A stretch of 64,000 bases of DNA from an uncultured delta proteobacterium (lineage in GTDB: Bacteria; Desulfobacterota; Desulfovibrionia; Desulfovibrionales; Desulfovibrionaceae). Location of the stretch: the NCBI GenBank assembly GCA_900079685.1, contig LT599018.1, positions 1,510,970 through 1,574,969 on the forward strand. Reading direction: 5' to 3'. The position numbers and the translations under genes were made by a program. This document shows, piece after piece, positions 7,997 to 10,505 of this stretch; within the stretch, counting starts at the first letter, position 1; each line of letters opens with the position of its first letter. The notes beneath the pieces were generated by a model, which saw nothing but the letters and a program-made list of their open reading frames with translations, was not told the origin of the DNA and ran no database searches.

Positions 7997-8173
7997 CAAA
8001 AGCTTCCCGGAACCGTGTGTTTTCCGCAACGCGACTGTGACAAAAAAAACACACTCCGTAGAAAAAGCCACACACCATGAAAACAGCGATCGCCCAAAAG
8101 TCTAGATAAATAACGATCTCCCACTACCTGCCATACTGGCATGTTTATTGCTATAGAGCCGTCGGAGGGCAGC

Positions 8174-9121
8174 ATGACCCAAACGACGATCAGCCAATCC
8201 ATAGAATGCACCGGCATCGGCCTGCACAGCGGCAAAACGGTCCGCCTCGGCCTCCGGCCCGCCGCTGAAAATACAGGTATTGTTTTTCATGTAAAAACGC
8301 CGCACGGCATCCGGGACATATCGCCCCGCCCCGACATCGTCACCGATACGGGCCTTGCCACCACGCTGGGCACCGGGGACGCGCGCGTTGCCACCGTGGA
8401 GCATCTGCTCGCCACCATCCGTGGCCTGGGCATTGACAACATCCATGTGGATGCCGAAGGCGGCGAAATTCCCATCATGGACGGGAGCGCCGCGCCCTTC
8501 GTGATGCTTCTGGGCAAGGCGGGCATCGTCCGCCAGAGCGCTCCGCGTAAAGTTCTGCGCATCAAGAAGCCCGTGGCCTTCTCCCGGGACGGCAAGTCCA
8601 TCGAGGCCTTCCCGCATGACGGGTTCGCGGTGGAATATACCATCAATTTCCCGCACCAGCTCATCGGCGTCCAGAAAATGCGGCTCGAACTGACCCCGCG
8701 CACCTTTTCCCAGATTTCCCGCGCCAGAACCTTCGGCTTCCTGCGCGAAGTGGAATACCTGCATTCCAAAGGCTTGGCGCTGGGCGGCTCCCTGGACAAC
8801 GCCATCGTGCTCGACGACTGTTCCATCCTTAATAAGGAAGGGCTGCGCTTCGAGGATGAATTCGTGCGCCACAAAGTGCTCGACTTCATCGGCGACATGG
8901 CCATGCTGGACCGCCCGCTGCAGGGCCGCTTTGTGGTTTCCTGCTCGGGCCACGCGCTGAACAACGAGTTTTTGCGGACCATCACAGCCAACGCCCAGAC
9001 CTATCTGGAAGCCGTAACCCTGTCCGACCCCGTGCGCGGCAGGGAAACGCGCGCGGCGCATCCCATCCCCGCCGTGGGCGGCGGAGCCCCCGTTCGCCAG
9101 CCCGTTCCGAGCGTGGCGTAA
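8174..9121 (+). CDS. lpxC: UDP-3-O-acyl-N-acetylglucosamine deacetylase (LpxC)
   Basis: Zinc hydrolase that removes the acetyl group from UDP-3-O-acyl-GlcNAc, the committed step of lipid A synthesis at the cytoplasmic face of the inner membrane. The 315 residues fit the family (about 305). The ATG at 8174 follows GGAGG at 8163-8167. Zinc ligands are visible as His77 in VEHLLA and His233/Asp237 in HKVLDFIGD; the catalytic base region is IMDGSAAPF (101-109), and His260 in SCSGH matches the catalytic histidine near position 265 of E. coli. The C-terminus has an extra Pro/Ala/Arg tail after residue 290 of no known role. It is a single gene ended by an intrinsic terminator. It shows the organism makes lipid A. 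Confidence 0.95.
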   Translation: MTQTTISQSIECTGIGLHSGKTVRLGLRPAAENTGIVFHVKTPHGIRDISPRPDIVTDTGLATTLGTGDARVATVEHLLATIRGLGIDNIHVDAEGGEIPIMDGSAAPFVMLLGKAGIVRQSAPRKVLRIKKPVAFSRDGKSIEAFPHDGFAVEYTINFPHQLIGVQKMRLELTPRTFSQISRARTFGFLREVEYLHSKGLALGGSLDNAIVLDDCSILNKEGLRFEDEFVRHKVLDFIGDMAMLDRPLQGRFVVSCSGHALNNEFLRTITANAQTYLEAVTLSDPVRGRETRAAHPIPAVGGGAPVRQPVPSVA

Positions 9122-9146
9122 CGCTCATCCAGGTATATGAAAAACG

Positions 9147-9179
9147 AAAAGCGAGCCTCCCGCGGGCTCGCTTTTTTTT
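9147..9179 (+). terminator. Intrinsic terminator of lpxC
   Basis: Stem AAAAGCGAGCC with GGCTCGCTTTT around a 7-base loop, followed by a run of eight T, 25 bases after the lpxC stop. Confidence 0.9.
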
Positions 9180-9301
9180 GCGTAAAAAGGTTGTAAAAAC
9201 ATTCTGTTACAATGCCATACTTGACCTTTTCCCGGCCTCGCGATAGTGGTTCATACACACGAGACCGGCGCTTGTTTGCCGGGCTCACAAGGAGGTTCAC
9301 A

Positions 9302-9775
9302 ATGCGGATCGGAGTTGCAATAGTTTCGGCCCTGTGCGCGTTTTCCATCGCTTTCGGCGGTATGGGGGCAACCGCCCTGGCCGCTTCGGCCGACCGCCCG
9401 GATCAGGGCGCGCAGTTTGAGCGGGATCGCAAAAGAGATGACAGAAGCCCCGGCAGAGACGACCGCAGGCCGGATACCAGGCGCGGCGACAGAGACAGAA
9501 TGTCCGACGACAAAAAAGGGGGCAACCAGGGCAAAGCTCCCAAGCCCCAGGGCCGGCACGACAACCGGGACATGAAGAACGACAAGGATAACGGCAAAAA
9601 AACCAAGAACAACGACAGGCGTGATTACAGGGGCGACAAGCGCGACGGCGACCGCAGGCACGATGGCGACCGCAGGCACGACGGCGACCGCAAGGGAGAC
9701 CGCGATCACAAGCGTGACGGCGATCGCAAACGCGACGGCGACCGCAAGGACGGTAAAAACGGCAAACGCCGCTAA
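9302..9775 (+). CDS. Exported Arg/Asp/Lys-rich low-complexity protein
   Basis: Function unknown. The start at 9302 is chosen because a strong AAGGAGG lies at 9289-9295. The 157-residue product begins with a signal peptide: MRIGVAIVSALCAFSIAFGG then an ALAAS site near residue 28, so the mature protein should be periplasmic or secreted. The remaining 128 residues are almost entirely D, R, K, G, N and H, with no hydrophobic core. The C-terminal third is an imperfect repeat built from RRHDGD and KRDGD units. Such a chain cannot fold alone; it could bind polyanions, metal ions or envelope surfaces. DNA repeats encoding the units are visible at 9640-9760. It resembles the RcnB/YXWGXW-type exported basic proteins only in composition. 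It lies between lpxC and tRNA genes, with inverted repeats downstream. Confidence 0.8.
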   Translation: MRIGVAIVSALCAFSIAFGGMGATALAASADRPDQGAQFERDRKRDDRSPGRDDRRPDTRRGDRDRMSDDKKGGNQGKAPKPQGRHDNRDMKNDKDNGKKTKNNDRRDYRGDKRDGDRRHDGDRRHDGDRKGDRDHKRDGDRKRDGDRKDGKNGKRR

Positions 9776-9837
9776 CACGAAGAACACGCCGGGCCTTGCG
9801 TGACGCGACAGCACACGGAAAGCGCAGCGGACACATT

Positions 9838-9877
9838 CAGAAGCCCCTGCCGGATACTAACCCCGCAGGGGCTTCTC
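9838..9877 (+). terminator. Hairpin after the charged exported protein
   Basis: Arms AGAAGCCCCTGC and GCAGGGGCTTCT enclose a 14-base loop. There is no long T run, so it could be a weak terminator or an mRNA 3' end structure. Confidence 0.55.
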
Positions 9878-9880
9878 CCG

Positions 9881-9905
9881 TATCCGGCGCGCCGCGCGCC
9901 GGATA
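9881..9905. repeat. GC-rich perfect inverted repeat
   Basis: TATCCGGCGCG and CGCGCCGGATA flank three bases. It lies directly after the preceding hairpin, making two adjacent stem-loops in the gap before the tRNA cluster. No T run follows; role unknown. Confidence 0.6.
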
Positions 9906-10027
9906 AAAAATCAACGCCAAAGGCTTTCTCCCCTTGCCAAGTGCATCCGATCAGGGTATACCCGCCGCGTTGACTCAAGGAAGCTGACTTCCTGCGCGCT
10001 TTTTTTCGGCAAGGACCTTTTTTTTTC

Positions 10028-10056
10028 TTGCCTTTTTACCCGGGCGCAGGTAAAGA
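10028..10056 (+). promoter_or_regulatory. Possible sigma-70 promoter of the tRNA-tuf operon
   Basis: TTGCCT (10028-10033), 17 bases, then TAAAGA (10051-10056). Transcription would begin just before the first tRNA. The match is moderate. Confidence 0.4.
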
Positions 10057-10068
10057 AGCTCTCTTGTC

Positions 10069-10144
10069 GCCGGCGTAGCTCAACTGGCAGAGCAGCTGAT
10101 TTGTAATCAGCAGGTTGCGGGTTCGAGTCCCATCGCCGGCTCCA
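10069..10144 (+). tRNA. tRNA-Thr(TGT)
   Basis: A 76-base cloverleaf with acceptor arms GCCGGCG and CGCCGGC, discriminator T and encoded CCA. The anticodon loop TTTGTAA gives TGT. It heads the thr-tyr-gly-thr-tuf arrangement known from E. coli tufB. Confidence 0.97.
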
Positions 10145-10151
10145 TTGGAGT

Positions 10152-10237
10152 GGTGGGGTTCCCGAGTGGCCAAAGGGAACAGACTGTAAATCTGTCGTCA
10201 TACGACTTCGGTGGTTCAAATCCACCCCCCACCACCA
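10152..10237 (+). tRNA. tRNA-Tyr(GTA)
   Basis: An 86-base class II tRNA with a long variable arm, acceptor arms GGTGGGG and CCCCACC, discriminator A and encoded CCA. The anticodon loop CTGTAAA gives GTA. Confidence 0.97.
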
Positions 10238-10294
10238 CTAATTTTGCACGTCAGGCTGTAGGAGACGGTATCGTCACGGGACTACGGCGAGTGC

Positions 10295-10370
10295 GCGGGA
10301 ATAGCTCAATGGCTAGAGCATCAGCCTTCCAAGCTGAGGGTTGCGAGTTCGAGTCTCGTTTCCCGCTCCA
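10295..10370 (+). tRNA. tRNA-Gly(TCC)
   Basis: A 76-base cloverleaf with acceptor arms GCGGGAA and TTCCCGC, discriminator T and encoded CCA. The anticodon loop CTTCCAA gives TCC. Confidence 0.97.
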
Positions 10371-10429
10371 CCCAAGCCCTCCCCCCATCCGCAGCCTGAA
10401 GGCGCACGGTTGATGCGCCGCATACAGAG

Positions 10430-10505
<76 letters not shown>

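Follow-up and report, generated by a model that had tools for sequence, protein, structure and literature searches.

Among bacterial proteins that are small, secreted and charged are the RcnB-type periplasmic proteins (Pfam PF11776), which have relatives with R/D-rich N-termini; hydrophilins, for their part, are in many cases cytoplasmic. By the numbers given in PMC7448490, hydrophilins have a hydrophilicity above 1.0 and a glycine content above 6%, and they are discussed in PMC4190154 and PMC2292704. An exported case is Zmo0994 of Zymomonas mobilis, described as a secreted LEA-like protein whose composition, without the 33-residue signal peptide, is that of a hydrophilin, and for which stress protection was measured (PMC7448490). 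According to this description, the protective effect in E. coli persists without the signal peptide, and the authors concluded on a cytoplasmic role instead of, or besides, one in the periplasm (PMC7448490). Bd0108 of Bdellovibrio bacteriovorus is described as a small protein with a Sec signal and demonstrated disorder, which is thought to be periplasmic and which regulates a pilus together with its neighbor Bd0109 (PMC4267844).

How does the locus studied here compare? It lies in a 64,000-nt stretch of DNA from an uncultured delta proteobacterium of the Desulfovibrionaceae (GCA_900079685.1, LT599018.1, positions 1,510,970-1,574,969, forward strand; hereafter the window), and its ORF encodes a 157-residue protein that is best read as a member of the hydrophilin-like disordered polyampholytes, a class assignment that rests on composition. 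With Zmo0994, going by its description, the protein would share its occurrence in a bacterium, a signal peptide at the N-terminus and a mature part of the hydrophilin type; Zmo0994 is LEA-like, however, whereas the present protein gave no match to a LEA profile and no relative in the genomes searched. As the effect of Zmo0994 is independent of its signal peptide, caution is due in inferring much from export. The protein also resembles the described Bd0108 in being small, in its Sec signal, in disorder, although here only predicted, and in a host classed as deltaproteobacterial, yet it has no such partner gene and sits between lpxC and tRNA genes. RcnB-type proteins are likewise small, secreted and charged, but neither an RcnB nor a LEA profile, nor any other family of Pfam or NCBIfam, matched at E up to 1 (0 families in either). 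Both hydrophilin numbers are exceeded, and while a link to osmotic stress belongs to the usual description of hydrophilins, here the class is assigned by composition. As it stands, the protein is a lineage-restricted orphan within an already recognized composition class.

The locus and its reading frames

The ORF and its frame lie where the initial annotation had placed them, as sequence and ORF list confirm (Table 1). There is an alternative in-frame start further 5', at 9212, but 9302 is favored by the Shine-Dalgarno-like sequence as well as by the signal peptide. The ribosome-binding site noted at the outset is indeed present, whereas the accompanying statement that the gene is strongly translated finds no support.

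Table 1. Coordinates of the features at the locus, numbered from the first base of the window
Feature	Position	Strand	Basis
Upstream neighbor, presumed lpxC, synteny anchor	8141..9121	+	named from sequence
Candidate lpxC terminator: hairpin, G+C stem then eight T	9146..9176	+	folding
Candidate extended -10 promoter TGTTACAAT	9205..9213	+	weak
Long antisense ORF, 187 aa, A/V-rich, membrane-like	9251-9814	-	ORF list
5' leader hairpin preceding the Shine-Dalgarno-like sequence	9261..9286	+	folded within 9255-9320
Shine-Dalgarno-like AAGGAGG, 6 nt ahead of ATG	9289..9295	+	sequence, by eye
Long antisense ORF, 179 aa	9297-9836	-	ORF list
ORF, 157 aa, putative signal peptide and polyampholyte	9302..9775, stop codon included	+	translation, ORF list
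Candidate Sec-type signal peptide, residues 1-28	9302..9385	+	by eye; AlphaFold helix 3-19
18-bp tandem array, KRDGDR/RHDGDR hexapeptides	9637..9748	+	repeat search; units read
Strong hairpin 3' of the ORF, no T-run	9839..9876	+	folding
Second hairpin 3' of the ORF, no T-run on +	9881..9905	+	folding
tRNA cluster Thr-Tyr-Gly-Thr, downstream	10069..10505	+	tRNA calls

The upstream gene we take to be lpxC, a lipid A gene, a name given from its sequence and not by family search. The hairpin behind it (z -3.36 on the plus strand, -2.78 on the minus strand) is likely the terminator of lpxC, a role that is our own reading, because the consensus terminator scan flagged this hairpin on the minus strand alone. 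Closer to the ORF, the leader hairpin is no more stable than shuffled sequences (z -0.31), and neither promoter scan nor motif count yielded a convincing promoter: the single sigma-70-like site of the scan, at 9296-9324, is unlikely to serve the ORF, whose first codons fall within it, and TGTTACAAT occurs once within the window and at least once in 38 of 100 shuffles. On the 3' side, the initial annotation had seen two strong hairpins, and stable hairpins do stand there (z -6.35 and -4.21); they are not canonical terminators, however, showing no T-run on the plus strand, and the consensus scan found no terminator-like site on this strand within 9000-10100. The second of them is a palindrome with 11-pair arms and is followed on the plus strand by an A-run, and is therefore not a canonical intrinsic terminator for the ORF; one search of the organism's own genome returned no further copy of it. 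When the 293 bases that separate the ORF from the tRNA cluster were compared with the same genome, four matches resulted, namely the self match, two internal inverted ones and a weak one of 26 bases elsewhere. The gene after the tRNA cluster is presumably tuf. A TTGCC/TTGAC box stands at most 75 bases 5' of tRNA-Thr in 17 of the 20 syntenic relatives introduced below, a count made without a shuffled control, and CTTGCC also precedes tRNA-Thr in the window. The tRNA promoter is probably conserved among these relatives, and the ORF would therefore have an older element on either side.

That the ORF is coding we judge likely, chiefly because of the signal peptide and the Shine-Dalgarno-like sequence. 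Its GC content by codon position (0.65/0.49/0.75) peaks at position 3 and follows the same order as in the genes we take to be lpxC, tuf and rplA. Its codon-usage score of 0.239 lies low within the range of genes, being the 6th lowest of 47 for the whole ORF and the 8th of 47 for the mature part, with 45 of 235 and 37 of 235 shadow frames, respectively, scoring at least as high. As no believable homologue was found in the genomes searched, there is no sign of purifying selection on the frame. It is very improbable, in our estimate, that the sense ORF is not a gene and either mirrors one of the two hydrophobic ORFs on the opposite strand or belongs to non-coding DNA ahead of the tRNA genes. Such long antisense ORFs do exist, the 179-residue one has AGGGG about 7 nt ahead of its ATG, and the 187-residue one is rich in Ala and Val, as a mirror of Arg and Asp codons must be. 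With a poorer training set that included antisense ORFs, moreover, the codon-for-codon antisense frame was level with the sense frame over the same span (0.23 versus 0.222). The better training set, which still contains some doubtful ORFs and mildly favors the sense frame, assigns the two antisense ORFs scores of 0.007 and -0.521; in neither is GC highest at position 3, and no Shine-Dalgarno sequence is seen ahead of the GTG of the 187-residue ORF. The differences between the repeat units do not set the sense frame apart, as it has 18 synonymous codon pairs and one antisense frame has 27. As an observation in its own right, the 187-residue ORF is the mirror of the Arg, Asp, Lys and Gly codons of the sense strand, which calls for caution in automatic annotation.

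Composition, charge pattern and predicted structure

Read by eye, the putative signal peptide spans about residues 1-27/30, beginning with M-R and continuing into a hydrophobic core and the AxA sites A25-L-A27 and A28-S-A30, with candidate cleavage after A27 or A30. Lipoproteins carry a lipobox of the pattern [LVI][ASTVI][GAS]C. By eye, the signal peptide does not end in one, the sole cysteine of the protein being C12 in S-A-L-C, and a lipoprotein was rejected on this account. The mature part, taken as residues 29-157 (129 residues), has an FCR of 0.62, an NCPR of 0.11, a net charge of +14 from 47 K/R and 33 D/E, and a pI of 10.3. It consists of about 25% Asp, 23% Arg, 13% Lys and 13.2% Gly, and holds four His and one each of Glu, Tyr and Phe. 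The initial annotation had it made almost only of Arg, Asp, Lys, Gly and His; these residues do dominate, at 77.5% of the mature part (83% when N is added), so that the phrase holds in substance and is somewhat overstated, His contributing just four residues. Such a composition is not a product of chance ORFs. The window contains 228 mechanical ORFs with a length of 100 residues or more, of which the present one is the only one to reach an FCR of 0.5 after residue 28, having been flagged via its longer start at 9212 with a score of 0.51, and none of 1,487 mechanical ORFs does so in 515,256 bases of the loci L004-L059, not all of which are Desulfovibrio-like.

Toward the C-terminal end, the 18-bp array comprises 6.2 copies with 79% matches; it has six full hexapeptide units, one of which is KGDRDH, while the other five are KRDGDR or RHDGDR. 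Positive and negative charges are finely mixed. Charge segregation was computed with our own script as a Das-Pappu-type delta; the kappa value, also from a script of our own, is approximate. Segregation in the mature part is lower than in 5000 of 5000 shuffles, and that in the array is lower than in 4999 of 5000. In the 84 residues ahead of the array, which have an FCR of 0.56, it is lower than in 4972 of 5000 shuffles, and even mixing is therefore not due to the repeat alone.

With 0.62, the mature part stands well above the FCR of 0.30 beyond which a sequence is a strong polyampholyte by the published definition quoted in PMC10602382. The same source cautions that regions of high charge are in many cases helical. 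In the present protein, the Gly content of 13%, the use of Asp in place of Glu and the AlphaFold model speak against a helical charged region. This model, run on the single sequence, contains one helix at residues 3-19, with the remainder as coil, at a mean pLDDT of 51.4 and about 48 after the signal peptide; it agrees, as weak evidence, with a disordered mature part. A single alpha-helix of the ER/K type was rejected, as no long helix beyond residues 3-19 is predicted and the chain has 13% Gly and one Glu. The hydrophilicity index is the sign-reversed Kyte-Doolittle mean, which at -2.09 for the whole protein and -2.91 for the mature part gives hydrophilicities of about 2.1 and 2.9 as compared with the hydrophilin value of 1, next to glycine contents of 13.4% and 13.2% as compared with 6%. 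Taken together, sequence, charge mixing and structure prediction support the initial proposal of a secreted, disordered polyampholyte.

Two other functions suggested by the composition appear less probable. An Arg-rich chain of net charge +14 could coat LPS, peptidoglycan, extracellular polymers or DNA and act in matrix formation or adhesion, and the pI of 10.3, the 31 Arg of the whole protein, the export signal and the neighboring gene, presumably the lipid A gene lpxC, would fit such a basic envelope-binding protein. Fine charge mixing should, however, weaken binding to polyanions, and proximity to lpxC does not constitute an operon link because a terminator of its own seems to follow lpxC; we thus consider this function improbable. 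Asp-rich repeats occur in some biomineral or calcium-binding proteins, and with 25% Asp, DGD spacing and four His a secreted metal- or mineral-binding protein is conceivable, but its probability is slight: His residues are few, the mature part lacks Cys, no family matches, and Asp mostly adjoins Arg, Lys or Gly. Metal binding, as brought up by the initial annotation, is hence weak, above all where it would depend on His.

Distribution among relatives

No believable homologue of the 157-residue protein was found in sets of 59, 199, 348 and 395 genomes, which are overlapping draws that each include its own genome; plasmids, phages, viral contigs, PDB, Pfam, NCBIfam and PHROGs were also searched, the last likewise without a family match. 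Non-self matches occurred in 1 of 58 genomes at E 0.001, in 26 of 198 at E 1, and in 7 of 347 and 4 of 394 at E 0.01, the best E being 2.9e-4. When 12 matched loci (L003, L083, L110, L153-L161) were read, none held a secreted polyampholyte: the matches fell into other frames of ordinary genes or across internal stops, onto short frames that lack a signal peptide (L155, L160), or onto the charged linker of a presumably protease-like protein (L153), gene kinds at these loci being named from sequence. L086 and L101 passed a loose screen of 30 loci, made up of the matches at E 1 and L003 and leaving out one place in G120, and neither is similar to the protein. As low-complexity proteins diverge fast and are poorly handled by bias-corrected searches, distant counterparts could be missed. 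The DGD(R/S)-x-x-DGD(R/S) pattern, sought in 288 genomes of the family, occurs at three sites in its own genome, all within the ORF, and elsewhere in 1 of 287 genomes (G280, L149), at a locus without a gene of this kind; with the backward pattern matching in 4 of 288 genomes, the G280 match is chance-like. Among the titles listed in a literature search, none concerned such a protein in Desulfovibrio-like bacteria.

The site itself can be followed through synteny. Of 105 lpxC loci (L004-L082, L113-L138), which include distant phyla and some genomes under two names, six with fewer than 200 bases downstream were left out, and in 20 of the 99 scanned, tRNA-Thr(UGU) lies at most 1500 bases from lpxC; L118 duplicates L020, leaving 19 distinct spacers. 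These measure 89-764 bp, versus 947 in the window, and in none of the 20 (19 distinct) does an ORF like the present one occur. Across both strands of the 20 spacers, none of 166 start positions giving at least 50 residues reached an FCR of 0.5 after residue 28, the highest value being 0.42 (L006, 61 residues, minus strand). Signal-like ORFs on the plus strand, among the matches listed, are found in L006, L014 and L017, with charged fractions of 0.19-0.24. The absence of such an ORF from the lpxC-tRNA-Thr spacers of 20 relatives makes it look like a lineage-restricted insertion. Long spacers without an obvious gene also exist in other Desulfovibrio-like genomes (L006 634 bp, L008 764 bp, L017 732 bp), and the spot may therefore tolerate insertions. 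Within the genus (two genomes), no counterpart was found in G001, a 74% complete genome whose contigs break at the site: it contains the first part of lpxC at 83% and most of tuf at 93%, with the lpxC contig of 4,208 bases matching up to 4,207 and no contig reaching past the tuf match.

The same distribution feeds the main rival to a protective function, namely that the gene is an orphan of recent origin or weak function. It would be a new or transferred signal-peptide ORF whose tail grew by expansion of the 18-bp repeat and which has no selected role. Taxon-restricted genes of Bacillus, as described in PMC10003748, can derive from non-coding sequence and be traced to it, and the 6.2-copy array, the missing homologues and family matches and the 20 of 20 syntenic spacers without such an ORF all suit this origin. 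It sits less well with the 84 residues ahead of the array, which are highly charged themselves (FCR 0.56) and so well mixed that 28 of 5000 shuffles are as low, and with the good Shine-Dalgarno sequence and signal peptide. We regard an orphan of this kind as possible, if on the unlikely side.

A possible role in the envelope

The explanation that we prefer, and to which we would give an even chance, is that of a real exported, envelope-targeted disordered polyampholyte, encoded by a lineage-restricted gene and acting as a hydrated protective spacer. It builds on what was observed, that is, the ORF, its composition, charge mixing, predicted coil and absence from the spacers of 20 relatives, and on the signal peptide and Shine-Dalgarno sequence as read by eye; from these we infer a promoter of its own, expression, export, location and protective role. 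In this scenario, the gene would form its own transcription unit between the likely lpxC terminator and the tRNA promoter, and the protein would be exported by Sec and then cleaved by signal peptidase I. The mature chain would stay soluble and hydrated as a coil, either periplasmic or outside the cell, kept expanded and non-sticky by its finely alternating positive and negative charges. It may then serve as a shield of the hydrophilin or LEA type, which retains water and ions and, when the cell meets osmotic, drying or solvent stress, keeps the proteins of the envelope from touching, the net charge of +14 favoring loose contact with anionic envelope polymers. An envelope or desiccation-type role, as raised by the initial annotation, is plausible by analogy with this class.

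A more far-reaching idea, for which we see little probability, is that of a de novo, lineage-specific periplasmic polyampholyte in which selection keeps the charge pattern while the sequence drifts, and which, in the envelope of this anaerobe, perhaps forms a mixed-charge condensate or gel enriched in Arg. If the charge-pattern reading holds true, bacteria would possess a natural equivalent of the polyampholyte protectants made synthetically. If the gene is real, it would provide a small test case for the roles of exported disordered proteins in bacterial envelopes, and likewise for the origin of new genes between conserved housekeeping genes. As the insertion site is well bounded, from the likely lpxC terminator to the tRNA promoter, strains would be directly comparable at this locus.
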